From the IMG/VR virus record IMGVR_UViG_3300044799_000457, positions 1 to 25,616 of that record: a DNA stretch of 25,616 bases; one strand, written 5' to 3'. This DNA comes from a virus. The first letter of the stretch is position 1. Every line of letters starts with the position of its first letter. Below are positions 4,157 through 25,109 of this stretch, in pieces. Below the pieces are notes generated by a model that worked only from the letters and a program-made list of their open reading frames with translations, did no database searches and was not told where the DNA came from. The position numbers were made by a program, and so were the translations under genes.

Positions 4157-4719
4157 CCGGCGCGGACGCCCTCGTGCAGCTCCAAGCGGTCCAGTCGTTT
4201 CTCCGGCTCCCGCTCGCCCCAGACGGCAAGGTCTATGGGCCAGGATTTTTCCACACGCGCGATTGGGTCAAGTCACTGGAGAGCGAAAACCGCCGGGTGA
4301 CGCTCCGCGTCGGCAGCCGTCGATCCTGTGCGGTCTGCGGTGGGGGTCTTAGTGGTTCGTCAACGGGAGATCACCTGATCCCGCTGGCCAAAGGCGGTCC
4401 CGTGGGCGCCCAGAATTTCTTGCCCCTCTGCCGGTCCTGCAATGCCAGTAAGGGTCCGCGTGACTTCCTCGAGTGGCTGTCCGGGCGATCGTTCGACATC
4501 CGGCTCCTGGATCTGGACGCCGTGTGCGCTTATGCGCGGCTCAAATACGCCTGGCTCAAGGAGGGCGGGCACCTCGGAACCCCCGCCTCACGCGGACTAC
4601 AAGAAACGCTGGCGTCGCTGCGGAGCCGGCTTCCTGAGCGCCACCGAGCGGTTCTCGACGGGCTCCGTTATAACGGAGCACATAGGAAGCCAGATCAGGA
4701 ACAGGGAGCGCAGCCGTGA
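4153..4719 (+). CDS. HNH endonuclease
   Basis: This 188-aa protein contains a textbook HNH core at residues 59-103: C59-x2-C62, D73-H74 in GDHLIPLAKGG, N88 in AQNFLPLC, and C93-x2-C96-N with NASKGP. All metal-binding and catalytic positions are present. HNH enzymes nick or cut DNA; in phages they are found next to terminase (assisting packaging) or replication genes, or as homing endonucleases. Here it precedes the Prim-Pol gene with a GTGA overlap, so a replication or homing role fits better than packaging. N-terminal residues 1-55 are unassigned. Confidence 0.85.
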   Translation: MTGADALVQLQAVQSFLRLPLAPDGKVYGPGFFHTRDWVKSLESENRRVTLRVGSRRSCAVCGGGLSGSSTGDHLIPLAKGGPVGAQNFLPLCRSCNASKGPRDFLEWLSGRSFDIRLLDLDAVCAYARLKYAWLKEGGHLGTPASRGLQETLASLRSRLPERHRAVLDGLRYNGAHRKPDQEQGAQP

Positions 4720-6845
4720 ACACGCCCGACGCAACCACCCTCCTGACCGCGGCCCTTGAGTACCTCACATGGCCGATCCCCGCGATTCCCGTGGACGCGG
4801 ACAAGCGCCCCCTCTGTAAATGGGGTGAGTACTTGACCCGGCCGCAAACCGAGGACGAGGTGCGGAGCTTGCCCTGGGATCGCGCCTACGGGCTCGCGCT
4901 GGTCACCTGGCCGGGGTCGGAGCTCATCGTCCTGGACTTCGACGGGCCCTGTGCCATGGCGGCGTGGAAGGCGACGGGGATCGAGCTTCCGCCGACGTGT
5001 GCCGTCCGCACCCGGAGCGGCTGGCTGCACGCAATCTACCGCACCCCGAGCGGCACGCCGCGCCCGGGCACGAATGGGAACGATCCGCGCCGCAAGGTGC
5101 GTCTCATCAAGGCGGCAGGTTGCGCCTGCACCAAGAAGTGCGGCGTGGACCTGCTCCTCAATGGCTACTTTCTGACGATTCCCACCCCCGGGTACCACGA
5201 GAATCCGGATTTCCCCTTCGAGCAGGGCCGGCTCGCCGAGATCCCGCAGGCCGTTCTGGACCTGGCCCGGGCGACCGCGGGCACGACCGGGACGCCGGAC
5301 AGCGCTGGACCCATCCCGGAGTCCGAGATTGCCCGGTTGCTCGCCTACGTCCCCCACGGGGAGATGCACGCAGCGTTGCTGACCCTGGCCGGCCATTTCG
5401 CCGCGAAGCTCGGCCCCCGCGAGGACGAGATCCTCGGCATCATCGAGCCCGCCACGCGGCAGTGGCAGCAGCCGGTGGACCTGGAGAAGGTGCGGCAGAC
5501 CGTCAAGGGTGTTGTGGCGATGGAGCAGCAGAAGCGGCAGCGATCCCGGAGAGGCCCCGAGCCGCCGGAGGAGCAGGCGCGAAAGCCCATACAGCATACG
5601 CAGGCCCAGCCGAACGGCAGCGCTCCCCCTCCAGCAGCCGAGATTGCCGAAGCCCCGCCGCTCCAAGTGCCCGAGGCGGGCATGCTCGGGATCGCGCGGG
5701 AGTTTGCCACGCTGTATGCGAGCCACCTGGAGGCGCCGACGAGCTTCTTCTACTTTACATACTTGACCTATCTCGGCGCGCTGCTCAGCCGGCAGATCTC
5801 CCTCGTCTCCGCCCTGGACATCGAACCCCGGTTGTACACCGTCCTCGTCGGCGAATCGTCCGACACCCGGAAGAGCACAGCCCTTCGCAAGACGGACCAG
5901 TTCTTCCGCTCCCTGGCCGGCTACGAGCTGACGGTATTACTCGGCGCCGGGAGCGGGGAGGGGCTGGCGAAGGCGCTGCAGGAGTCGCCGGAACTGCTGC
6001 TGCACTATGACGAATTGAAAACCTTCGTGTCCAAGGCGCAGGCCGAGTCAAGTGTTCTCCTGCCGATGGTGGGCAGCCTGTTCGAGCGCCATGAGTATGA
6101 CAACCGGACCAAGGAGGGGTCGATCAGCGTGCGAGGGGCGAGCCTCTCGCTCGTCGCCGCGTGCACGCAGGAAACCTACAGTACGATGTTCGACCGGCGC
6201 TTTCACGCCATCGGGTTCCTGAACCGGCTGTGGCTGGTGGCCGATCGCACCACCACGCGGATCGCCATGCCCCCGCCGTTCCGTCCGGACGTGCTCGACC
6301 GCCTGCGGGATCAGACCATAAGTCTCCTCAAGGATATCCAGGGGCGGTATCGGCAGAAGAACTACCAGCGGGTCGAGTTCGGCCTCACCAAGGGCGCAGA
6401 GGCGATGTTCACCGCGTGGTACCTGCAGCGGCAGGGGACGATTTTCGAGAAGCGGCTCGAGACCTACGGGCATCGCTTAATGCTGCTCCTCACCGCCATG
6501 GCCGGCAAGGATCAGGTGGACGAGGAGATCACCACGGCTGTCGTGGCCCTGCTGCGTTACCAGTTGGATGCCCGGCGGGAGCTTGACCCGGTGGATGCTG
6601 AGGGCACTATCGCGATCCTGGAGGAGCGGGTTCGGCGCACGCTGGCCCGGGGGAGGTTGAGCGGGCGGGAGCTCCGGCGCCGACTTCATCCAGAACGGGT
6701 CGGCATCTGGATGTGGAATACGGCTATCGAGAACCTTCTTCACGGCTCACGTGAACTGCACTGGGATCGGAAAACGGACATCTACTGGCTGACAGGTGTC
6801 ACCATCACTGTCACCACACCTCAAACAGGGCCTAACTCATGGTAA
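4716..6845 (+). CDS. Prim-Pol domain replication protein with C-terminal ATPase (DUF3987-like)
   Basis: This 709-aa protein starts at GTG, overlapping the HNH stop. Residues 15-200 form a bifunctional primase/polymerase domain: catalytic D74-F-D76 in LIVLDFDG, H105 in RTRSGWLHAIYR, and the GVDLLLNGYFLTIPTPGYH segment. A CAC...KKC cysteine group (near residues 135-143) is an insertion that could bind zinc. A proline-rich hinge (about 280-325) leads to an ATPase-like domain: VLVGESSDTRKST (about 375-387) is a variant P-loop with RKS in place of GKS, and LLLHYDEL (about 427) is the Walker B. Such fusions initiate and prime replication of plasmids, phages and satellites. The candidate origin lies directly downstream. 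Confidence 0.85.
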   Translation: MNTPDATTLLTAALEYLTWPIPAIPVDADKRPLCKWGEYLTRPQTEDEVRSLPWDRAYGLALVTWPGSELIVLDFDGPCAMAAWKATGIELPPTCAVRTRSGWLHAIYRTPSGTPRPGTNGNDPRRKVRLIKAAGCACTKKCGVDLLLNGYFLTIPTPGYHENPDFPFEQGRLAEIPQAVLDLARATAGTTGTPDSAGPIPESEIARLLAYVPHGEMHAALLTLAGHFAAKLGPREDEILGIIEPATRQWQQPVDLEKVRQTVKGVVAMEQQKRQRSRRGPEPPEEQARKPIQHTQAQPNGSAPPPAAEIAEAPPLQVPEAGMLGIAREFATLYASHLEAPTSFFYFTYLTYLGALLSRQISLVSALDIEPRLYTVLVGESSDTRKSTALRKTDQFFRSLAGYELTVLLGAGSGEGLAKALQESPELLLHYDELKTFVSKAQAESSVLLPMVGSLFERHEYDNRTKEGSISVRGASLSLVAACTQETYSTMFDRRFHAIGFLNRLWLVADRTTTRIAMPPPFRPDVLDRLRDQTISLLKDIQGRYRQKNYQRVEFGLTKGAEAMFTAWYLQRQGTIFEKRLETYGHRLMLLLTAMAGKDQVDEEITTAVVALLRYQLDARRELDPVDAEGTIAILEERVRRTLARGRLSGRELRRRLHPERVGIWMWNTAIENLLHGSRELHWDRKTDIYWLTGVTITVTTPQTGPNSW

Positions 6846-7704: not shown

Positions 7705-8086
7705 CGCACTGAAAGGCAGGATGCCAAGGTGCCTCCCCGATCATAGGTCGCGTGAAGGCAAGCGGTTACGAGAGGTTTACCTCGAGTTCATAGGAAAACA
7801 TCCAGACGCCCCCGGCCCGGCCCGCCGCATCGCCTTGATGGCCGCTGAAGCATGGATCTCATACGAGGACCTGGGGATACAGATTGCCCGTGCGAAGCGA
7901 AACAAAAGATCCGCCCTGGAGATCCGCCGCTTGGCAAAGGGGCGCAGGTTGGCCGCTGGACACTACCTCGGCGGGATGCGAGAGCTTCAGGCACTGATCG
8001 ATCGAGACGGGCATAAGCCCTCCGACCTGGCCCAGGCGATCCAGACCGCCCAGCAGCGCAGCCTCGAGGATGGAAATGGACGATAA
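7697..8086 (+). CDS. Probable terminase small subunit
   Basis: This 129-aa protein overlaps the large terminase by 17 bases and the HTH gene by 8. It is basic and helical: REGKRLREVYLEFIGKHPDAPGPARRIALMAAEAWISYEDLGIQIARAKRNK, later RLAAGHYLGGMRELQALIDRDG. Small terminases recognise the packaging start site and regulate the large subunit, and they usually lie immediately upstream of it. I cannot point to a diagnostic family motif, so the call rests on position, size and composition. The ATG at 7697 fits the coupled start better than the in-frame upstream codons, which lie in the preceding gene. Confidence 0.55.
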   Translation: MASALKGRMPRCLPDHRSREGKRLREVYLEFIGKHPDAPGPARRIALMAAEAWISYEDLGIQIARAKRNKRSALEIRRLAKGRRLAAGHYLGGMRELQALIDRDGHKPSDLAQAIQTAQQRSLEDGNGR

Positions 8087-9650
8087 GGACCTCCACCGCT
8101 ACGCCATGGATCCGGCCTTCTTCGTTGACCGTTTCGTGAGAGTGAACGAGCTCGGGCAGCCCTTCCGGCTGATGGACCACCAGCGGGAGTTTCTCCGGCT
8201 GGCCTTCGCCTTCGACGACGCCGGCCTGCTTCTCTGGACCACGCTCGTTTACGGTGCCATCAAGAAGTCAGGGAAGACTTTCCTTGAAGCGCTTCTTGCC
8301 CTCTGGTGGGCCTATTGCCACGAGGCGCCGAACGAAATCATAGCAATCGCGAACGACTTAGAGCAGGTCCAGGCGCGTGCCTTCAAGTCCATGTGCGGCC
8401 TTATCCGGTACAACCCCGCGCTCGCACGAAGCGCCGAAGTGTTGACCAAGCAGATTATCTTGAGCAACAGGACCACGATCACGGCGATTGCCTCGGAGTA
8501 TGCAGGCGCCGCCGGCTCGAATCACGGCTTCACCGGCTGGGATGAGCTTTGGGCCTACACCTCCGAGGCCTCGCACCGATTGTGGGAAGAACTGACTCCA
8601 GTGCCGACGCGCCGGAATTCCGTTCGCGTCGTGACGACCTGTGCCGGCTGGGAAAATGAGAGCGAACTGCTTCGGGCTCTGTACAAGCAGGGCGTCGGGA
8701 AGGAGGAGCATCCCGACGGCCAAGGTGAGCGCCTCCACCCGACACTGCCCATTTTCGCCAACCAGGATGCGCGCCTTCTGGTCTACTGGGACCACGAGCC
8801 GCGCATGCCGTGGCAAACACCATCCTACTACGCGGCCCAGCGCCGGACCCTCCGCCCGGGGACGTACCTCCGCCTTCACGAGAACCGGTGGACCACGTCC
8901 GAGTCAACCTTCATCACGCCCGAGCTGTGGGATCCGTGCGTTGATCCCACCCTCTCGCCGCCACTGCCGACGCGGAGCGTCTCTCTCTTCGCCGGCGTGG
9001 ATGCAGGCATCAAACACGACAACGCGGCGGTGGTGACAGTCTACTGGAAGGAGGACAAGCTGGCCCTCGGCCCCTTCCGAATCTGGCGCCCCTCACCGAG
9101 CGAGCCCCTGGACATCGAGGCCACCATCGAGGAATTCGTCCGCGAGCTGCACGAGCGGTACGACCTGGCCTCGGTCCTCTGTGACCCCTACCAACTCCAC
9201 CGCTCCATCACGACCCTGCAGGCGGCCGGGCTCCCGATCGCCGAATTTCCGCAGACCACATCCAATACGACGCGCATGGGGCAGGGCCTCTTCGATCTTC
9301 TCCAGGGCCGGAACCTCCGACTCTACCCGAGTGAGGCACTTCGTGGCCAAGCTCTCAACACGATCGCCGTCGAGACGCCCCGGGGCTGGCGGATCGCGAA
9401 GGAGAAAGCATCCAAAAAGATCGACGCGGTTGTGGCCCTCGCGATGGCCGTTACAGCCGCCCTGGATGACGCCCCGCCGGCCGGCCCCAGCGCGGCCGAC
9501 CTGCAACGAGCGGAAGCGCAGGTGGCCACCCTCACGCTGGCGGTGCAGCAATGCGCGAGCGGCGAGAATTTGCAGGCTTTGGCGGCGGCGAAACGAGACT
9601 TCAGCGAGAAGCGCCGGTGCTACGTCGGCGAGCACCTCGGCTGTTGGTGA
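8070..9650 (+). CDS. terL: Phage terminase large subunit
   Basis: This 526-aa protein is a full two-domain packaging motor. The ATPase half has GAIKKSGKT (Walker A, residues 62-70) and GWDEL (Walker B, D158-E159). The RNase H-like nuclease half has its three acidic residues in GVDAGIKHDNAAVV (D311), SVLCDPYQLH (D372) and KKIDAVVALAMAV (D452). The enzyme cuts concatemeric DNA and pumps it into a procapsid through the portal. All key residues are intact and the length is normal for the family, so it is probably functional. A charged extension follows residue 470. Oddly, no portal or capsid gene follows, as the tape measure gene begins 214 bases later. Confidence 0.93.
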   Translation: MEMDDKDLHRYAMDPAFFVDRFVRVNELGQPFRLMDHQREFLRLAFAFDDAGLLLWTTLVYGAIKKSGKTFLEALLALWWAYCHEAPNEIIAIANDLEQVQARAFKSMCGLIRYNPALARSAEVLTKQIILSNRTTITAIASEYAGAAGSNHGFTGWDELWAYTSEASHRLWEELTPVPTRRNSVRVVTTCAGWENESELLRALYKQGVGKEEHPDGQGERLHPTLPIFANQDARLLVYWDHEPRMPWQTPSYYAAQRRTLRPGTYLRLHENRWTTSESTFITPELWDPCVDPTLSPPLPTRSVSLFAGVDAGIKHDNAAVVTVYWKEDKLALGPFRIWRPSPSEPLDIEATIEEFVRELHERYDLASVLCDPYQLHRSITTLQAAGLPIAEFPQTTSNTTRMGQGLFDLLQGRNLRLYPSEALRGQALNTIAVETPRGWRIAKEKASKKIDAVVALAMAVTAALDDAPPAGPSAADLQRAEAQVATLTLAVQQCASGENLQALAAAKRDFSEKRRCYVGEHLGCW

Positions 9651-9672
9651 TGGCGTGACGAGGAGGGCAGCG

Positions 9673-9864
9673 ATGCGAGCTACAGCACAACCGACCACCC
9701 TGGACCTGATCTTTCGCGGTCTGGACCTGTGCGACTCATGCGGGATGCACCTGGAGCCGGCAGACCAAATCGCCGGGCTTTGCGCCAGGTGCGATCCGCC
9801 GCGGCGTGCCCCCGTGCACACGTCTGTACGACTCGCCAGCCGCCAAGGAAAGGAGGGTAGGTGA
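9673..9864 (+). CDS. Small two-knuckle zinc-binding protein
   Basis: This 63-aa protein has two CxxC pairs, CDSC and CARC, 18 residues apart, forming a probable zinc ribbon. The ribosome binding site GAGGAGGG precedes the ATG by about seven bases. Its TGA overlaps the ATG of the tape measure gene (TGATG), so the two are translationally coupled. It fills the place where portal, capsid and tail genes normally lie. Its function is unknown; many phage zinc ribbons of this type bind DNA or act as small adaptors. Confidence 0.65.
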   Translation: MRATAQPTTLDLIFRGLDLCDSCGMHLEPADQIAGLCARCDPPRRAPVHTSVRLASRQGKEGR

Positions 9865-12443
9865 TGCCCCAGGACAATGTGATCAGCATCCGCGTGGTCG
9901 TGAAGGACGACGGCAGCATCGCCCTGAAGCAGGTGGCCCAGTCTACCGAGGACCTCGGCAAGAAGGCCGCGGCCGGCTCCGAGGGCATGGTCAAGCTGAA
10001 TGCCGCCGGCGCGGAGGCACGCGGGATCTTCCAGGGCCTCGGTCAGGAGGGGGCGGGCCTCCTCGGACGCTTCGGCGGGCTGCTCACCGTCCTGGGGCCC
10101 GTGGGGATCGGGCTGGGGGCCGCGGCCTATGCCGCTACCACTGCCGTCTCGGCGTTCACGGGCTTTGCCTCCCAGGTGCGGGACCTTTCCTTCCTTTCTG
10201 GTGGCTCGACGCGTGACACCTCGGTCCTCGTCGCGGGTCTGGAGCACATGGGCGTCAGCTCTGGTGCCGTGGAGATCGCCATGCGCGCCATGTCGGCGGC
10301 GGTTGAGAACGGCTCGCCGGTCCTCAATAAGCTCAAGATCAGTCTTATTGACATGAGCGGGGCGCAGAAGACCGGGCTGACTCTGTTCTACGAAACGATC
10401 GACGCCCTGCGCGCTATGCCGAACGAGATGGAGCGCAACCGCCTCTCGCAGCAACTCTTCGGGCGCAGTTTCCTGGAGTTGATCCTCGCCATCCAGCGCG
10501 GATCAGGAGCCATCAAAGAACTGGGTGAGGCGTCTGGGAAGTTCCTCACGGCAGAAGATCTCGAACGGGCGAAGCAGTACACCCTCGCCGTCGCAGAAGT
10601 AGGCGAGGTGTGGGACCGAGCCAAGATCAATCTTGGAAGGGGCATCATCGCGCCGATCACCTTCGTACTGAAGTGGCTCGGGACGGCAGGTGAGGAGACC
10701 ACTCCGTATGAGGAGTCTAAACGCATTGGCGAAGCTTTTGGCATGATGTTTCCGCAGAAACCGTCCGCCCCACCCCTAGAGTCCTATTTCGCGTCGGAAG
10801 CGGCAATGCAGGCGAATGTCTTTCGGCAGACCGGCATGCAGGCTCCCCCCTTCGACATTCAGGCGCTCCAGCGGAAGATCTTCGAGTCCCAGACTATGCA
10901 GATGCAGGCGGCCGCCCGGGCGACGCTGGCCACCAGCCCGGCCGCCATCCTCTCTGCGCAAGCCGACGCCCTCCGGGCCGCCCTACGGGGGGAGTTGGCG
11001 AAGTTCGCAATAGAGGCTCACGCGCAGGGGCTGACAGATGAGCAGATCTCCCCGCGCAGGATCGCCCTGACTGCGCAGACCAACGCCGCGATCGAGAAGC
11101 TCACGCGCGATAGCCTCCTGCGGCAGGCCGAGCCGCTCATTAAGTTCTATGACGACAGCCAGGCGATGGCCGAGAAGCAGTACGAGGCGCGGGTGAAGAT
11201 CGAGCAGGATATCACCGGGGCTACGCTGAACGAGAACGATAAGCGCCTCCGTGAGGTCGAGACCTGGCAGGAGACCAGCCTCAAGAGCATCCAATCCGTC
11301 TACGGGGAGAGCTTGGAGGGAGCGAGCCTCATCACGGCGGTCTACGCCGAGAGCGGGCGGCGGCGCGTCGAGATCGAGATTGAGACGGCGCGGAAGATCG
11401 GGGATGCCCTGAAGGGGCAGACGGATACCTTCGAGGAGGCCTATCGGCTCCAAGGCCAGCCGGTGACGCTGGACTGGGATCGCTACTATGCTGGCTTCCT
11501 CAAGCAGTTCTCCGACGCGCAGACGAAGTTCCAGAACGCCCTGACGGCGCCGATCCAGATGCGGGCCATGAGCCTCGGCGGCCCGCAACTCCTCCCCTAC
11601 GCCGAGTACGAGGACCGCCTGACGAAGATCGGCATCACCGCGCAACTCATCGGCCGGCAGTACTTCGACCCGCTCTCCAAGAGCATCAGCGAGACGCAGA
11701 GCACGCTTGAAGCCCTGGTGGCCAACGGCGTGGACCCGGCCAGCGAGCGCATGCAAGGACTCAAGACGAGGCTTGCCGATCTCCAGGACCAGTTCGAGCG
11801 GCGCGAGATGTTCCGCAATGTGTTCGACGAACTCTCGTCCGGGATTGCCGATTCGGTCCGGGGGGTCGCCCAGGGCACGCAGACCATGGGGCAACTCTTC
11901 ACGAACCTGGGGTACACAGTCCAGGCTAGCCTTCTCAACATGATCGTGAAGAACGGTCTCCAGAAGCTGGATCGCTACCTCGAGGACTGGTTGACGGAGA
12001 ACGGCGGTTTCTGGGCCCGCCTCTTCGGCTTCGGCGCCGGGGCGATGATGACTCACGCGCCGCTCGAAGGCACCACGGCAGTCGTGGCGGATATCCTGCG
12101 CGGGTCCGGCGGCATCCTCCCCGGTACCTTCGCCCCCCTCCGCCGCTTCGCCTGGGGCGGCATCTCCGACGGCCCGATGCTCGGGATGATCGGCGAGGGG
12201 CGGTATCCCCGCGAGGCCGTGATCCCGATGCCCGATGGCCGGTCCGTGCCCGTCACCTTCACCGGCCCGGCGAGCAACGAACCGATGAAATTAACGGTGA
12301 ACGTGATCAACGAGAGCGGGGTCCCGCTCGCCGTGAAGCAGACCACGACGCGCCGGAGCCAAAGCGAGCAGGTAGCACAAATCTTCATCGGCCTCACGGT
12401 CACCAATCCGGATGTCCGTGCGGCGATAGCGGCGGTGCGATGA
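9864..12443 (+). CDS. Phage tail tape measure protein
   Basis: This 859-aa protein starts at ATG 9864, seven bases after AGGAGG; the in-frame GTG at 9861 is less likely. The N-terminus (VISIRVVVKDDGSIALKQVAQSTEDLGKKA) and following hydrophobic glycine/alanine segment (about residues 65-110) are typical of tape measure proteins, followed by long helical regions. The C-terminus has the family-typical GGISDGPMLGMIGEGRYPREAVIPMPDG. Tape measure proteins set tail length and enter the host envelope during DNA injection. At 859 residues it would predict a tail of roughly 120-130 nm by the usual 1.5 Å per residue rule. Tail tube, chaperone and major tail protein genes are missing upstream. Confidence 0.9.
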   Translation: MPQDNVISIRVVVKDDGSIALKQVAQSTEDLGKKAAAGSEGMVKLNAAGAEARGIFQGLGQEGAGLLGRFGGLLTVLGPVGIGLGAAAYAATTAVSAFTGFASQVRDLSFLSGGSTRDTSVLVAGLEHMGVSSGAVEIAMRAMSAAVENGSPVLNKLKISLIDMSGAQKTGLTLFYETIDALRAMPNEMERNRLSQQLFGRSFLELILAIQRGSGAIKELGEASGKFLTAEDLERAKQYTLAVAEVGEVWDRAKINLGRGIIAPITFVLKWLGTAGEETTPYEESKRIGEAFGMMFPQKPSAPPLESYFASEAAMQANVFRQTGMQAPPFDIQALQRKIFESQTMQMQAAARATLATSPAAILSAQADALRAALRGELAKFAIEAHAQGLTDEQISPRRIALTAQTNAAIEKLTRDSLLRQAEPLIKFYDDSQAMAEKQYEARVKIEQDITGATLNENDKRLREVETWQETSLKSIQSVYGESLEGASLITAVYAESGRRRVEIEIETARKIGDALKGQTDTFEEAYRLQGQPVTLDWDRYYAGFLKQFSDAQTKFQNALTAPIQMRAMSLGGPQLLPYAEYEDRLTKIGITAQLIGRQYFDPLSKSISETQSTLEALVANGVDPASERMQGLKTRLADLQDQFERREMFRNVFDELSSGIADSVRGVAQGTQTMGQLFTNLGYTVQASLLNMIVKNGLQKLDRYLEDWLTENGGFWARLFGFGAGAMMTHAPLEGTTAVVADILRGSGGILPGTFAPLRRFAWGGISDGPMLGMIGEGRYPREAVIPMPDGRSVPVTFTGPASNEPMKLTVNVINESGVPLAVKQTTTRRSQSEQVAQIFIGLTVTNPDVRAAIAAVR

Positions 12444-17320: not shown

Positions 17321-17349
17321 TTGACAAAGTGTAACCTAGGTATTACCTT
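17321..17349 (+). promoter_or_regulatory. Promoter/operator of the topoisomerase VI-like operon
   Basis: TTGACA (17321-17326), 17-base spacer, TACCTT (17344-17349). Half-sites GTAACC (17331-17336) and TTACC (17343-17348 region) form an imperfect dyad with ACCTAGGT at its centre (17334-17341). The promoter at 22613 has the same boxes, spacing and half-sites, with the left half shifted by one base. The expected start of transcription is close to ATG 17357, so the first transcript could be nearly leaderless. Confidence 0.65.
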
Positions 17350-17365
17350 AAGGAGCATGGAGACC

Positions 17366-17530
17366 ATGGCGATTGAGCGGCACACGCTACACCTGGATAC
17401 GCAGGACCTGAAAGCCCTGGCCCGACTGGCCAAGGCTGAGGCGAAGGCGACGGGGATCCGGGTGACCGCCGCCGGCATCGTCCGGCGACTCATCAAGGAA
17501 TTCCTGCAATCACGAGCTCAGAAGAAATGA
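17366..17530 (+). CDS. Ribbon-helix-helix DNA-binding protein
   Basis: This 54-aa protein reads as a minimal ribbon-helix-helix repressor: a short strand (RHTLHLDTQ), helix A (DLKALARLAKAEAKA), turn with GIRVT and helix B (AAGIVRRLIKEFLQ), with a basic tail. These dimeric proteins bind short palindromic operators with the paired strands. ATG 17366 lies ten bases after AAGGAG; ATG 17357 is an in-frame alternative. The operator-like promoter immediately upstream suggests autoregulation of the whole operon, including the topoisomerase genes. Confidence 0.7.
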   Translation: MAIERHTLHLDTQDLKALARLAKAEAKATGIRVTAAGIVRRLIKEFLQSRAQKK

Positions 17531-17538
17531 GGCATCCC

Positions 17539-17871
17539 ATGGCCAGCCCCCGTCTCCTCATCCCTACCGTCCTCCCGCCGCTCTCGGCCGCGGAGGAAGC
17601 GATCCAGCGGGCGAAGGTCCGGCAGGAGGCCGAGCGCCTGGCCCGGCGCCTCCGGTACCTCCAGGCCATGACGCCCGGATGCCCCAGGACGATCACGGGG
17701 GCGATCCCGATGAGGGGCTCCTACGCCATGCCGGAGTCGGGGTTGCGGAACCGGTGTCCGAATTCGGACACCGCCCGTAAGGTGAAGGTGGGGGAGTTGT
17801 TGGAGAAGGAGGCACCCATGGCCCTGATACTTCAGATTAAGTGCAGTGGATTTCGTGAAACGGGTAGGTGA
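17539..17871 (+). CDS. Small protein with GAIPMRGxYAMP motif (paralogue A)
   Basis: This 110-aa protein, MASPRLLIPTVLPP at the start, has a charged helix (AEEAIQRAKVRQEAERLARRLRYLQ) and the motif GAIPMRGSYAMPES near residues 56-69. The gene at 22856 has the same start (MAPRVLIPQIVEP) and GAIPMRGAYAMPAS. Within that motif the two genes differ at nearly every third codon position but at only two amino acids, which shows selection on the protein. It lies eight bases after the RHH stop and ends four bases before the topoisomerase B start. No known family. A 22-base palindrome lies in its coding sequence. Confidence 0.7.
   Translation: MASPRLLIPTVLPPLSAAEEAIQRAKVRQEAERLARRLRYLQAMTPGCPRTITGAIPMRGSYAMPESGLRNRCPNSDTARKVKVGELLEKEAPMALILQIKCSGFRETGR
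17752..17773. repeat. Perfect 22-bp palindrome inside a small gene
   Basis: The half-site CGGTGTCCGAA (17752-17762) is followed directly by its exact reverse complement (to 17773), with GAATTC at the centre. It lies in the coding sequence of the small GAIPMRG protein, about 100 bases before the topoisomerase B start. A regulator site or an enzyme recognition site are both possible. Confidence 0.75.
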
Positions 17872-17875
17872 TGCT

Positions 17876-19216
17876 ATGGGTCCGCGCCTCAGTCGCACGA
17901 CCTTTCGCACCAGCCGGCTGCTGGACTTCTTTTCGGAGAAGGAACTGGTGGCCCAGATCGGTCACCCCAAGGAGCAGTGGCCCCTCGTGGTGCTGAAGGA
18001 ACTCGTGGACAATGCGTTAGACGCCTGTGAGGAGGCCGGGGTCGCCCCGGAGGTGACGGTCAACCTCGACCCGGCGGGCATCACCATCAGCGACAACGGC
18101 CTGGGGCTTCCGGCAAAGACCCTCAAGAGCATCCTAGACTTTCGCCTCCGCGTCTCGGCCCGGGAGGCCTATGTCAGCCCGACCCGGGGGGCCCAGGGCA
18201 ATGCCCTCAAGACGATCCTAGCCATCCCCTACGTCCTGGACGGTACTGCTGGCACGGTGGAAATTGCCTCCGGCGGGAGGCGTCATGCCATCACCGTCCA
18301 GGCCGACCAGATCCGGCAGGAACCGATCATCCACCAGACCGTTCACCAGGATGGACTTGTAAGAACCGGGACAACGGTCACGCTCTGCTGGCCCGATTCA
18401 GCTTGCTCACTCCTGACGGATGCCCGGGAGCGATTTTTACAAATGGCCGAGGCCTACACCTGGCTGAACCCTCACCTCAGCCTGACGCTCTCCCTCTTCG
18501 AGGAACGCCTTCAGTTCCCAGCCACGGCCCCCACCTGGCGGAAATGGGGGCCGAGCGATCCGACCTCGCCCCACTGGTACACGGCCGAGCATCTGGGGCG
18601 GCTGGTGGCCGCCTACCTCACCCACGATGCCGATGCCGGGCGGGAGGAACGGACGGTCCGGGAATTCGTCGCGGAATTCCGGGGCCTATCGGGGACGGCG
18701 AAACAACGGGCTGTCCTGGAGGCGACGGGGCTGGCGCGGGAGAAGCTGTCGGCCCTGCGAAACGCCCACGGCCTGGATGCCCAGGCACTCGCGCGACTCC
18801 TCGCGGGCATGCGCACGCACTCGTCCCCGGTCAAGCCGGCCAGCCTCGGGGTGATCGGTCGGGACCATCTGGCCGCCCGGTTCGCAGCCTTGGGCTGCAC
18901 CATGGAGACGTTCAACTATACACGCAAGGCCGATGTCTCGGAGGACGGCTTGCCGTGGGTGCTAGAGACCGCCTTCGGCTGGTGCGAGACGCTCCCGGGG
19001 CGCCGCTCCATCATCGGGGTGAACTGGTCCCCCGGCATTGTCAACCCGTTCCGGGAGCTGGGCGTGGGGCAATCCCTCGACACTATCCTGGAGCGACAGA
19101 AGGTCGGACGCGACGAGCCGGTCATTCTCTTCCTGCACCTGGCCCAGCCGCGGGTGCAGTACGCCGACCGTGGCAAGTCCAACGTGGTGGTAGACGGCGA
19201 CAACGATGGAAATTAA
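17876..19216 (+). CDS. Topoisomerase VI subunit B-like GHKL ATPase
   Basis: This 446-aa protein starts at ATG 17876, four bases after AGGTGA; an in-frame GTG at 17846 lies in the preceding gene. The GHKL ATP-binding fold is clear: N-box KELVDNALDAC (E42, N46), ISDNGLGLP (D73-x-G75) and RGAQGNALKT (residues 104-112), the last a variant of the usual GxxGxG with Ala in the third place. A middle region (about 230-300) fits the helix-two-turns-helix insert, and the transducer-like end contains FLHLAQPRVQYADRGKSNVVV, where K434 is a candidate switch lysine. Topoisomerase VI B closes on ATP to drive strand passage by the A subunit. It is shorter than archaeal B (about 530). Confidence 0.88.
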   Translation: MGPRLSRTTFRTSRLLDFFSEKELVAQIGHPKEQWPLVVLKELVDNALDACEEAGVAPEVTVNLDPAGITISDNGLGLPAKTLKSILDFRLRVSAREAYVSPTRGAQGNALKTILAIPYVLDGTAGTVEIASGGRRHAITVQADQIRQEPIIHQTVHQDGLVRTGTTVTLCWPDSACSLLTDARERFLQMAEAYTWLNPHLSLTLSLFEERLQFPATAPTWRKWGPSDPTSPHWYTAEHLGRLVAAYLTHDADAGREERTVREFVAEFRGLSGTAKQRAVLEATGLAREKLSALRNAHGLDAQALARLLAGMRTHSSPVKPASLGVIGRDHLAARFAALGCTMETFNYTRKADVSEDGLPWVLETAFGWCETLPGRRSIIGVNWSPGIVNPFRELGVGQSLDTILERQKVGRDEPVILFLHLAQPRVQYADRGKSNVVVDGDNDGN

Positions 19217-20465
19217 CGCGACCACCATCATCGACGCCATTCAGGGCGTGACGAAGAAGTGGGCCAAAGTCCGCAAGGCCGAGGAGCGGGAGGAGGCCCG
19301 GCGCTACCGGCGATCAGAGTATATGACGCGCCCCCTTCGGGAAACTATCAAGGAGGTAGCCTGGGAGGTGATGGTTGCGGCGTATAGGAAGGCCTCGGCC
19401 AACGAGACCCTGCCCGCCACGGCGCGACAGATCATGTACGCCGCCCGCCCGGACATCCTAAAGCGCACGGGACGACAAGACCTGGACGACCAGTATTTCA
19501 CGCAGACCATCCTCCCGGACTACATCCAGGAACATCCGGAACAGACGGCCGACTGGGACGTGGTGTTTGATGCTCGCGGGCATCTTCATGAGCCGCACAC
19601 GGAAAAGAGCGTGCTGCTCGGCACGCTCGCTGTCCGAAAATATCTCTCGGATATCAAGGGGCAGAAAGTCCTCGATCCAGGTGTCACGGTCGCTGGCGGC
19701 GACACAGATTTTCCTACCTGCGGCCCGGCCAACCGCTATGGTGCCATCCTCTTCATAGAGAAGGAGGGTTTTCTTTCGTTGTTCGAGGCCGTTCATCTGG
19801 AGGCCAGGTATGACATCGCCATCATGACCACCAAGGGTGTCAGCACAACCGCGGGACGGAGCCTTGTGGACGGGCTGTGCAGTGCCGGGGGCGGAGTACC
19901 ACTTCTTGTCCTCCATGATTTCGATAAGGCGGGCTTCTCGATCCTGGCGACGTTGAGTCGGGACACGCGGCGCTATACATTCTTCAACGACGTCCGGGTG
20001 ATCGACCTCGGTCTCCGCTTGGCTGACGTGCAGCAATGGCATTTGCCGGGAGAATCCGTCAGCTTTGGCCGATCGGATCCGACGCGGAACCTCCAGGAGA
20101 ATGGGGCGACCGCCGACGAGATTTCCTACCTCTGCAACGGCGATATCGGGCGCCGGGTGGAGTTGAACGCCTTTACGTCCGATCAGTTCATCGCGTGGCT
20201 GGAGGGGAAGCTGGCCGCACACGGCGCCAAGAAGGTAGTACCCTCTGCCGAGATCCTGACCCGGGCCTACCGTCGCGCCCTATATGCCACACTGATTCAG
20301 CGCGCGGTGGATGATATGCACGAGAGCGTCCGCAGGCGCGTCGAGGCGATGAAAGTTCCCACGGGCCTCGTCCAGCACGTCAAGAAGGCGCTGAATGCAC
20401 ATCGCGAGCGCCCCTGGGATGCGGTGATCGCCGAAATGGTTGTCAAACAGCTCGACAAGCGGTAG
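19206..20465 (+). CDS. Topoisomerase VI subunit A/Spo11-like protein
   Basis: This 419-aa protein overlaps the B gene by 11 bases. The winged-helix (5Y-CAP) domain has the catalytic tyrosine Y78 in ATARQIMYAARP. The Toprim domain follows: ILFIEKEGF (E186) and VLHDFDKAGF (D239-x-D241-xx-G244). These are the residues that cleave DNA with a 5'-phosphotyrosyl bond and hold magnesium in topoisomerase VI and Spo11. Its length is near archaeal A subunits (about 370-390) with an extended N-terminus and C-terminus. The DFDKAG form is typical of diverged bacterial Toprim proteins. With the B subunit it should form an A2B2 type IIB topoisomerase, or a programmed DNA-cutting enzyme. Confidence 0.88.
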   Translation: MEINATTIIDAIQGVTKKWAKVRKAEEREEARRYRRSEYMTRPLRETIKEVAWEVMVAAYRKASANETLPATARQIMYAARPDILKRTGRQDLDDQYFTQTILPDYIQEHPEQTADWDVVFDARGHLHEPHTEKSVLLGTLAVRKYLSDIKGQKVLDPGVTVAGGDTDFPTCGPANRYGAILFIEKEGFLSLFEAVHLEARYDIAIMTTKGVSTTAGRSLVDGLCSAGGGVPLLVLHDFDKAGFSILATLSRDTRRYTFFNDVRVIDLGLRLADVQQWHLPGESVSFGRSDPTRNLQENGATADEISYLCNGDIGRRVELNAFTSDQFIAWLEGKLAAHGAKKVVPSAEILTRAYRRALYATLIQRAVDDMHESVRRRVEAMKVPTGLVQHVKKALNAHRERPWDAVIAEMVVKQLDKR

Positions 20466-20853: not shown

Positions 20854-20919
20854 CCCCCGCGTCAGCGCGACCTGACCGGGGGCATGGCCCACAACCCCAG
20901 CCTGAGAAGGAGGAGAGGC
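20854..20919 (+). ncRNA. Hairpin leader repeat, copy 1
   Basis: A strong two-part hairpin (CCCCC and GTCAG pairing with CTGAC and GGGGG, 20854-20882) is followed by CATG, then GCCCACAACCCC, AGCCTGAGAA and a ribosome binding site GGAGGAG ending at the ATG of the next gene (20920). Two further copies occur at 23135 and 23465. Copy 1 and 2 share the hairpin almost exactly, and all three share GCCCACAACCC. It looks like a 5' leader element controlling expression of the next gene, not coding sequence; the function is unknown. Confidence 0.55.
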
Positions 20920-22644: not shown

Positions 22645-22851
22645 ATGGGACGAACAAAAGGGCTCAGCAAGATGCTGAAGAAGCTCCGGGAAGGCAAGGG
22701 AATGACCCAAGCACAACTCGCCGAGAAGGCGGGCATCACCCGTGAATACATCACCATGCTGGAGAGCGGGGCGAAGGCCAATCCCTCTCTCGACGTGGCC
22801 GTGCGGCTGGCCAAGGCCCTGGGCGTGTCGATTGCCAACCTGGTGGAGTGA
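22645..22851 (+). CDS. Small XRE-family regulator
   Basis: This 68-aa protein is almost only a helix-turn-helix: LSKMLKKLREGKGMTQAQLAEKAGITREYITMLESGAKANPSLDVAVRLAKALGVSIANLVE. Helices 2 and 3 (QAQLAEKAG, REYITMLES) carry the DNA-reading surface. The start at 22645 lies just after the operator; an internal ATG (22672) is also possible and keeps the whole fold. Its operator is repeated in front of the topoisomerase VI-like operon, so this protein is the best candidate to control both. The next gene begins four bases after its stop and encodes a paralogue of the protein at 17539. Confidence 0.88.
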   Translation: MGRTKGLSKMLKKLREGKGMTQAQLAEKAGITREYITMLESGAKANPSLDVAVRLAKALGVSIANLVE

Positions 22852-22855
22852 CATC

Positions 22856-23131
22856 ATGGCCCCCCGCGTCCTCATCCCGCAGATCGTGGAGCCCAAACAG
22901 CCGGGCGACACCTTGCGGCAGTTCCGCGCCGCCCGTGACCGCGCCTACCGCCGGGCGACTGACCCCCTCTGGCCCCTTCGGGATCCCCGCGGCGCCATCC
23001 CGATGCGCGGGGCGTATGCGATGCCAGCCTCGGAGGCTGGGGCAGGCGTGAGGCGAGCGGTGGGAGAAGACGTGGCGCAGCTACGCTCAGAGCGGCGGAC
23101 TGGTAGACGTGGCCGGCCAGGAGGAGAGTAA
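22856..23131 (+). CDS. Small protein with GAIPMRGxYAMP motif (paralogue B)
   Basis: This 91-aa protein starts at ATG 22856; a longer frame to 22742 would lie inside the XRE gene. It reads MAPRVLIPQIVEP, a charged helix (RQFRAARDRAYRRATDPLWPL), GAIPMRGAYAMPAS and a basic tail. It is a diverged paralogue of the gene at 17539, sharing both ends of the conserved part and its place directly after a regulator gene. Third-position changes dominate in the motif, so selection is on the protein. Function unknown; the pairing with different regulators suggests an anti-regulator or a co-effector. Confidence 0.68.
   Translation: MAPRVLIPQIVEPKQPGDTLRQFRAARDRAYRRATDPLWPLRDPRGAIPMRGAYAMPASEAGAGVRRAVGEDVAQLRSERRTGRRGRPGGE
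23024..23040. repeat. Inverted repeat after the paralogue B motif
   Basis: CCAGCCTC (23024-23031), one base, GAGGCTGG (23033-23040): a perfect 8-bp inverted repeat. It begins within two codons after the AYAMP motif, and the 22-bp palindrome in paralogue A lies at a comparable place, although the two sequences are unrelated. Confidence 0.55.
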
Positions 23132-23134
23132 GAA

Positions 23135-23199
23135 CCCCCGCGTCAGCGTCACCTGACCGGGGGCATGGCCCACAACCCTCAACCCGAAAGGAGAGCATC
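23135..23199 (+). ncRNA. Hairpin leader repeat, copy 2
   Basis: The same hairpin as copy 1 (CCCCC and GTCAG pairing with CTGAC and GGGGG, 23135-23163) differs only in the terminal loop and keeps CATGGCCCACAACCC. It ends with GAAAGGAGAGCATC and ATG (23200). Conservation of both stem halves while the loop changes supports an RNA structure. Confidence 0.55.
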
Positions 23200-23918: not shown

Positions 23919-25109
23919 ATGGGATACCTGTACCGGCGGATGTTCACGAAGGGAGAGCTGCCCGCCGTGGAGGGCCGGCGGGTTTGGTGCGCGCACCCCG
24001 AGCATGGGCAGAGCGACGCCTGCCCCGGGTGCGGCGCCACGTTCGGGAAGACCTGGTGGGTGAAATACTACGTGAACGGAAAGCCCGTCCGGGAGAGCAC
24101 GGAGACTGACAGCGAGACGAAGGCGCGCCGGATGCTGAAGGAGCGCGAGGGGCGCGTGGCCGGCGGGCAACCCCTGCTGCCCCGGGTGGACCGGATCCGC
24201 TATGAAGAGGCGGCGGCGGATCTGCGCCAGCACTACAGGGTGACGGGGGAGCGGAATCTCGAAGAGGCTGAATACCGGCTCGCACGCCTGGACGCCTTCT
24301 TTGCCCATCGGCGCCTGGCGAGCATCGGCCCTGCCGACGCCACCGCCTACGCCGCGCAGCGGCAAGGGGAGCAGGTTGCGAACGGGACCATCAATCGCGA
24401 GCTCGCCGTCCTCAGTCGCATGCTCCGGCTGGCATACGACAACAACAAGCTCCTGCGTCTCCCGCGCCTCCGGCACCTGGAGGAGGCCGCGCCCCGGTCG
24501 GGCTTCTTCGAGCGCGAGCAGTACGAGGCCGTGCGCCAGCACTTGCCCGAGGACCTCCAGGCGGCCGTGGCGATCGCCCACACCTTCGGCTGGCGGATGC
24601 AGAGCGAAGTCCTGATCTTGGAGCTTCGCCAGGTGGATCTCGAGGCGGGCACGATCCGGCTGGACCCCGGGGCGACGAAGAATGACGAGGGGCGCGTGGT
24701 CTATCTCACGCCCGAGCTCCGCGGCATGCTCACGGCCCAAGTCGCCCGCGTGATGGATCTCATGCGCGAGCGGGGCGCCGTGATCCCGTACCTCTTCCCG
24801 CACTTGACGGGCCGGCACCAGGGGCAGCGGCGGCGGGAGTTCCGGAAGGCCTGGAAGACGGCCTGCAAGCGGGCCGGGTGCCTGGGGATGCTCCAGCACG
24901 ACTTCCGCCGGACGGCCGTGCGGAACATGGTCAATGCCGGGATCCCCGAGCGGGTCGCCATGGCGGTGACCGGGCACAAGACCCGATCCATCTTCGACCG
25001 CTACCACATCGTGAGCCCCGGGGATCTCCAGGAGGCCTCCCGGCGGCTCGCCGAGACGTCCACGCCCACCGTGGCCTCGAGGCTTGACCGTGAACGACGG
25101 AGCATGTAG
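23919..25109 (+). CDS. int: Tyrosine recombinase/integrase with N-terminal zinc knuckle
   Basis: This 396-aa protein has the full catalytic set: R226 (FGWRMQSEV), K254 (GATKNDEGRVVYL), H327-xx-R330 (QHDFRR), H353 (TGHK) and nucleophile Y362 (FDRYHIVS). Residues 100-185 form a SAM-like core-binding domain. The N-terminal arm-binding part carries a cysteine/histidine group (C24, H26, H29, C35, C38 in WCAHPEHGQSDACPGC), an insertion not usual for phage integrases. GGGAGGAG precedes the ATG. It catalyses integration and excision at att sites and sits at the right end of the element, as expected. It is probably active. Confidence 0.93.
   Translation: MGYLYRRMFTKGELPAVEGRRVWCAHPEHGQSDACPGCGATFGKTWWVKYYVNGKPVRESTETDSETKARRMLKEREGRVAGGQPLLPRVDRIRYEEAAADLRQHYRVTGERNLEEAEYRLARLDAFFAHRRLASIGPADATAYAAQRQGEQVANGTINRELAVLSRMLRLAYDNNKLLRLPRLRHLEEAAPRSGFFEREQYEAVRQHLPEDLQAAVAIAHTFGWRMQSEVLILELRQVDLEAGTIRLDPGATKNDEGRVVYLTPELRGMLTAQVARVMDLMRERGAVIPYLFPHLTGRHQGQRRREFRKAWKTACKRAGCLGMLQHDFRRTAVRNMVNAGIPERVAMAVTGHKTRSIFDRYHIVSPGDLQEASRRLAETSTPTVASRLDRERRSM

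Follow-up and report, generated by a model that had tools for sequence, protein, structure and literature searches.

A two-gene type IIB topoisomerase in a phage-like record

Two overlapping genes encoding type IIB topoisomerase-like subunits lie on the forward strand of IMGVR_UViG_3300044799_000457, an IMG/VR virus record whose 25,616 bases are covered in full by the window analysed here; the primase/helicase, terminase, tape-measure, regulator and integrase genes given below are on the same strand. The upstream gene (17876–19216) encodes a 446-residue B subunit with a GHKL ATPase, an H2TH domain and a transducer sheet, and starts with an ATG at 17876, with an alternative GTG start possible at 17846. 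The downstream gene (19206–20465) encodes a 419-residue A subunit with a stalk helix, a winged helix carrying Y78, a Toprim domain and a C-terminal helical extension. The two genes share 11 nt (19206–19216, ATGGAAATTAA), with the A start positioned within the end of B, and translation of B and A is likely coupled through this overlap. The first-pass annotation had described overlapping genes for a GHKL ATPase and a Spo11-like subunit, and the open reading frames, profile matches and motifs uphold this; it had, however, begun the locus at 17321, a range that takes in two unrelated upstream ORFs (17357–17530 and 17527–17871). The second of these ORFs has the peptide GAIPMRG(S/A)YAMP in common with an otherwise dissimilar ORF at 22742–23131.

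B residues 37–380 match the NCBIfam Topo VI-B profile at 6e-22, and B also matches Pfam HATPase_c; A matches the NCBIfam Topo VI-A profile at 1.4e-9 and Pfam TOP6A-Spo11_Toprim at 2.5e-6, the latter exceeding the gathering score. These matches far exceed chance. Both proteins fail the NCBIfam Topo VI cut-offs (77.9 against 274 bits for B, and 37.4 against 424 bits for A), and neither has a good PHROG match. A phmmer match of A to MscS, at E 0.01 only, was judged to be chance. Across 33 loci, distances between A proteins track those between B proteins (r=0.80, against at most 0.33 in 2000 permutations), which fits co-inheritance of the two subunits as one enzyme, although shared ancestry contributes to the correlation.

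AlphaFold2 models of the single chains, built with alignments of relatives, have pLDDT values of 92.7 (A) and 90.4 (B), and contain the winged-helix/Toprim and GHKL folds respectively. The closest solved fold to the A model is Methanosarcina mazei Topo VI-A bound to DNA (E 1.3e-8) and that to the B model is Sulfolobus Topo VI-B (E 1e-23), with about 14–20% identity between the window chains and the solved Topo VI chains in the fold search. A Foldseek comparison of the A model with viral models gave no match below 1e-3.

Conserved features of the B and A subunits

The motifs KELVDNALDA, DNGLG, RGAQGNALKT, RQIMY78, EKEG and HDFDKAG are all present. Within B, residues N46, D73, G108 and A110 are invariant across 36 sequences and K112 is kept in 35 of them. 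The alanine in place of glycine in the G2 box had been pointed out before; Ala110 is real, and because it is invariant in all 36 relatives we regard it as a family trait rather than a mark of decay. The H2TH domain, a hallmark of type IIB enzymes, occupies about residues 259–316 (18650–18823), where the profile alignment runs through the Topo VI-B H2TH region. The switch lysine K434 (DRGKS, 19175–19177) aligns with the GK of Topo VI-B and is found in 35/36 relatives, and B terminates 12 residues beyond it. B is short, as had been remarked, because the stalk helix is encoded by the A gene.

The A subunit opens with N-terminal helices (residues 5–41, 19218–19328) that are homologous to the transducer stalk at the C-terminus of Topo VI B. 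The catalytic tyrosine Y78 (RQIMY, 19437–19439) is present in 47 of 48 A sequences, the single exception being L046, a frame-broken copy, and the Toprim domain (19737–20075) carries E185, E187, D238 and D240, which are invariant in all 48. The key residues are thus intact as first reported, but the Toprim numbering given then (E186/D239/D241) was one too high. A helical extension at the C-terminus (residues 348–419, 20247–20462) exceeds the Topo VI-A core; such an extension of A has been named as a trait of Topo VIII (PMC8185306).

Pairwise comparisons between relatives give pN far below pS, and dN/dS is about 0.1–0.2 where dS can be estimated, dS being near saturation for most pairs. Together with the near-invariance of the catalytic residues, this indicates that the gene pair is under purifying selection. 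It also bears on the idea that the pair is a remnant in decay that no longer serves the element carrying it, a view that could draw on the absence of a recognised portal or capsid gene from the record and on the frame-broken state of some relatives (L034, L051, L052 and L060). Both window genes are nevertheless intact with all catalytic residues present, and comparisons between relatives give dN/dS values well below 1, so that we give a remnant the lowest probability of any reading considered here.

The host element

The record also encodes a DUF3987 primase/helicase (4716–6845), a terminase large subunit (8070–9650; phrog_9, 2.8e-43), a tail tape-measure protein (9861–12443), an HTH repressor-like regulator (22645–22851) and a tyrosine integrase (23919–25109; phrog_1, 2.4e-39), and a tail protein gene is recognised as well; it is therefore a temperate-phage fragment or a phage-derived element. 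The earlier description of a bacterial integrative element was right as to a mobile element but too narrow, since the terminase, tape measure and integrase mark a tailed-phage-like virus record. Genes for a portal, capsid or head protease were not recognised anywhere in the 25,616 bases, and for this reason the element may be incomplete, defective or satellite-like. The tape-measure gene begins about 210 bases after the terminase large subunit gene (window 8070–12443). Downstream of the topoisomerase genes is a 44-nt direct repeat (20854–20897 and 23135–23178, 95% identical) that holds a short GC-rich hairpin, with both copies located between likely genes.

Relationship to Topo VIII, Topo VI and other type II enzymes

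One scan of bacterial and archaeal genomes yielded 47 related loci, to which viral scans added more; many of the relatives sit on short MAG contigs. The closest relative of the window pair is a Phycisphaerales locus with 58% identity. Plasmid matches include a Paenibacillus polymyxa M1 plasmid protein (pPPM1a) that matches A over 74–87% of its length and is of the kind termed Topo VIII in reviews (PMC7614492). A tblastn search with A and B against 50,697 phage records gave no match, suggesting that this is a kind of phage topoisomerase not sampled among isolated phages.

In an IQ-TREE phylogeny of 62 A sequences the family is separated from haloarchaeal Topo VI-A at 100/100, Topo VI being represented by two rows only, and A groups with the Topo VIII lineage. 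The tree neighbours of the window A are split pairs, with the fused B–A proteins L018, L037 and L020 nested among them. The fused/split label changes at least seven times on the A tree, which fixes neither the root position nor whether a given change was a split or a fusion, and the starred branches alone require at least four (split) or at least six (fused) changes. The Mini-A branch is very long (9.3) and we give its position no interpretation.

Topo VIII was originally defined by fusion of A and B in one chain. As the window pair is two chains and fused forms are nested in the same clade, the phylogeny argues that it belongs to the Topo VIII lineage as a two-gene, split variant rather than as a typical single-chain member, and that it is not Topo VI by descent. 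The initial label of topoisomerase VI-like therefore holds for a type IIB pair but not for its ancestry, whereas the broader description, of a type IIB enzyme that has diverged, is encoded as separate subunits, keeps its chemistry intact and resides on mobile DNA of bacteria, is borne out by the profiles, the motifs and the content of the record. With Topo VIII such as that of P. polymyxa pPPM1a the pair shares type IIB A and B parts, catalytic residues, lineage in the tree, a C-terminal extension of A and carriage by mobile DNA (bacterial plasmids or integrated elements); it differs in its two genes, its phage context, its break between the lysine and the stalk, and the alanine in the G2 box. 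Archaeal and plant Topo VI also have separate A and B genes, with GHKL, H2TH, transducer, winged helix and Toprim in like order, but they are distant in the A tree, their profile cut-offs are not reached by the window proteins, and their stalk helix is at the C-terminus of B rather than at the N-terminus of A. Mini-A of Pseudomonas phage NP1 is likewise a phage-encoded Toprim/winged-helix protein that the A profile detects, but it lacks a B partner, whereas the window A has a full, adjacent and coupled B gene.

Reviews describe Topo VIII as "usually" or "mostly" a single-chain homodimer (PMC7614492, PMC8185306), wording which suggests that split Topo VIII may have been observed before. The phage context, the break within the transducer and the link to replication genes were not found in the literature searched, the primary Topo VIII and Mini-A papers (Gadelle 2014; Takahashi 2020) lying outside it.

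Several relatives have other arrangements. L090, on the chromosome of the Phycisphaerales genome that holds L009, is a Topo VI-like A/B pair apart from the element-borne Topo VIII-type pair (identity 36% over 335 residues for A and 48% over 129 for B). Rhizobium-type relatives (L027, L030, L033, L038, L058 and L059) combine in one chain an A part of the family and a B part that is very unlike the others and whose H2TH region the B profile does not recognise. Frame-broken copies of the pair (L034, L046, L051, L052 and L060) reflect either decay or sequencing errors.

A gene break within the transducer

The same break is present in 25 clean split pairs from many bacterial phyla, and two more split pairs (L093 and L094) were found later. 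In nearly all of the 25 the last residue of B is only a few positions from the DRGK loop, the split A proteins open with a helix of the form IIxAVxxVTKxWAKQRKAEER, and the commonest join between B and A is a 4-nt ATGA overlap. Fused relatives have the same helix stretch directly after the lysine loop, and a profile of ten of them aligns with Topo VI-B (2zbk_B residues 35–467) past the lysine and into the stalk helix. The split family has its stalk on A where Topo VI has it on B, which suggests that a fused enzyme was divided at a new position and that the Topo VI layout was not inherited. Two other accounts of the break were rejected: sequencing error, since about 25 independent loci have an identical break, and programmed frameshifting to join B and A, since the frame relation of B to A varies (0, +1 and +2) and the joins are mostly a plain ATGA overlap or short gap.

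In M. mazei Topo VI, cleavage is coupled to the state of the ATPase through the stalk, whose stability governs it, and the stalk mutant L469G lowers relaxation at least tenfold (PMC13040014). With the gene break inside the transducer, leaving the lysine loop on B and the stalk helix on A, the ATP signal would have to cross a non-covalent joint between B and A. We propose, in a wider hypothesis whose prospects we judge to be evenly balanced, that in a phage-associated type IIB clade the number of chains has alternated repeatedly between one and two, with the transducer broken between lysine and stalk, the coupling non-covalent and the enzymes dedicated to phage replication. If so, nature would supply a series of split and fused enzymes with the joint at the element controlling Topo VI cleavage, which could be used to examine how ATP binding is transmitted to the DNA-cutting domain.

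Gene neighbourhood and proposed role

Across the loci we identified terminase genes in 7, head maturation protease genes in 5, tyrosine integrase genes in 22 and serine recombinase genes in 10. In several loci a replication gene starts at the A stop codon or a few tens of bases from it, including genes for a DUF3987 helicase (L011), Prim-Pol (L024 and L036), an AAA_25 helicase (L038), a DnaD-like loader (L009) and initiator-like proteins (L033 and L058). Single-pass phmmer searches found a replication gene in 20/63 loci and in 0/20 stretches drawn at random from four of these genomes, the former count being biased upward because some of the replication seeds came from test loci. In a partly independent set, five of nine newer topoisomerase-bearing viral loci outside the seed set have a primase or helicase gene close upstream (L093, L094, L096, L097 and L102, of which L096 and L097 are near-identical). 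The window's own primase/helicase gene lies 11 kb from the topoisomerase pair.

These recurrent adjoining primase, helicase and initiator genes support the earlier suggestion of a role in element replication, whereas nothing specific favours the excision role offered beside it. Most likely, to judge from gene content, the pair relaxes or decatenates the element's own DNA during replication. Following known type IIB chemistry, B would dimerise upon ATP binding and capture one DNA duplex, the two Y78 residues and the Toprim Mg2+ site of A would open a second duplex (the G-segment), and the captured duplex would be passed through the break before resealing. The enzyme is predicted to assemble as A2B2 with the stalk bridging the chains non-covalently, and would remove supercoils or catenanes as the element replicates. 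We thus consider it probable that the pair forms an A2B2 type IIB topoisomerase of the Topo VIII lineage, borne by a temperate phage or phage-derived element and using ATP-coupled strand passage in replication, although this must be set against the weakness of the Topo VIII enzymes studied so far, many of which seem partly inactivated (PMC7614492).

Alternatively, A and B could act as a Spo11-like complex that introduces programmed double-strand breaks into the DNA of the element or the host with no strand passage, serving recombination-dependent replication, excision or attack on the host. A has the Spo11/Topo VI-A core, the Ammonifex degensii Topo VIII gave cleavage only (PMC7614492), and ATP coupling could be weaker with the genes divided at the stalk. 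The parts needed for strand passage are retained, however (H2TH, GHKL and, in 35/36 relatives, the switch lysine), whereas conversion to a nuclease has been tied to loss of H2TH and reduced ATPase activity (review, PMC11302465), and no recombination partner recurs among the loci; we therefore consider such a breaker unlikely, if the strongest of the competitors.

A second alternative is that the pair is anti-phage or anti-plasmid defence cargo on a prophage, like Wadjet JetD or Gabija. Toprim nucleases are known in defence systems (PMC13040014), and A has a weak match to DUF2399 that is below threshold (16.4 of 23.4 bits). The surrounding genes are not defence genes but encode replication proteins, terminase and integrase, and PADLOC gave no match for A, B or the flanking ORFs tested, which separates A from the Wadjet JetD/Toprim defence proteins and makes defence cargo improbable, only slightly less so than a remnant. 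The proposal of a DNA-cutting weapon is similarly disfavoured by the intact ATPase, H2TH and switch lysine, the lack of PADLOC matches and the replication-gene neighbours.

We know of no established main cellular role for Topo VIII, and the way in which genes for primases, helicases and loaders recur beside the topoisomerase genes in operon-like fashion suggests a concrete one, element replication, that is open to test. Phage T4-type type IIA topoisomerase, also a phage-encoded multi-gene type II enzyme, would act alike in phage DNA replication, but its A subunit is non-homologous and relatedness is confined to the ATPase of B.
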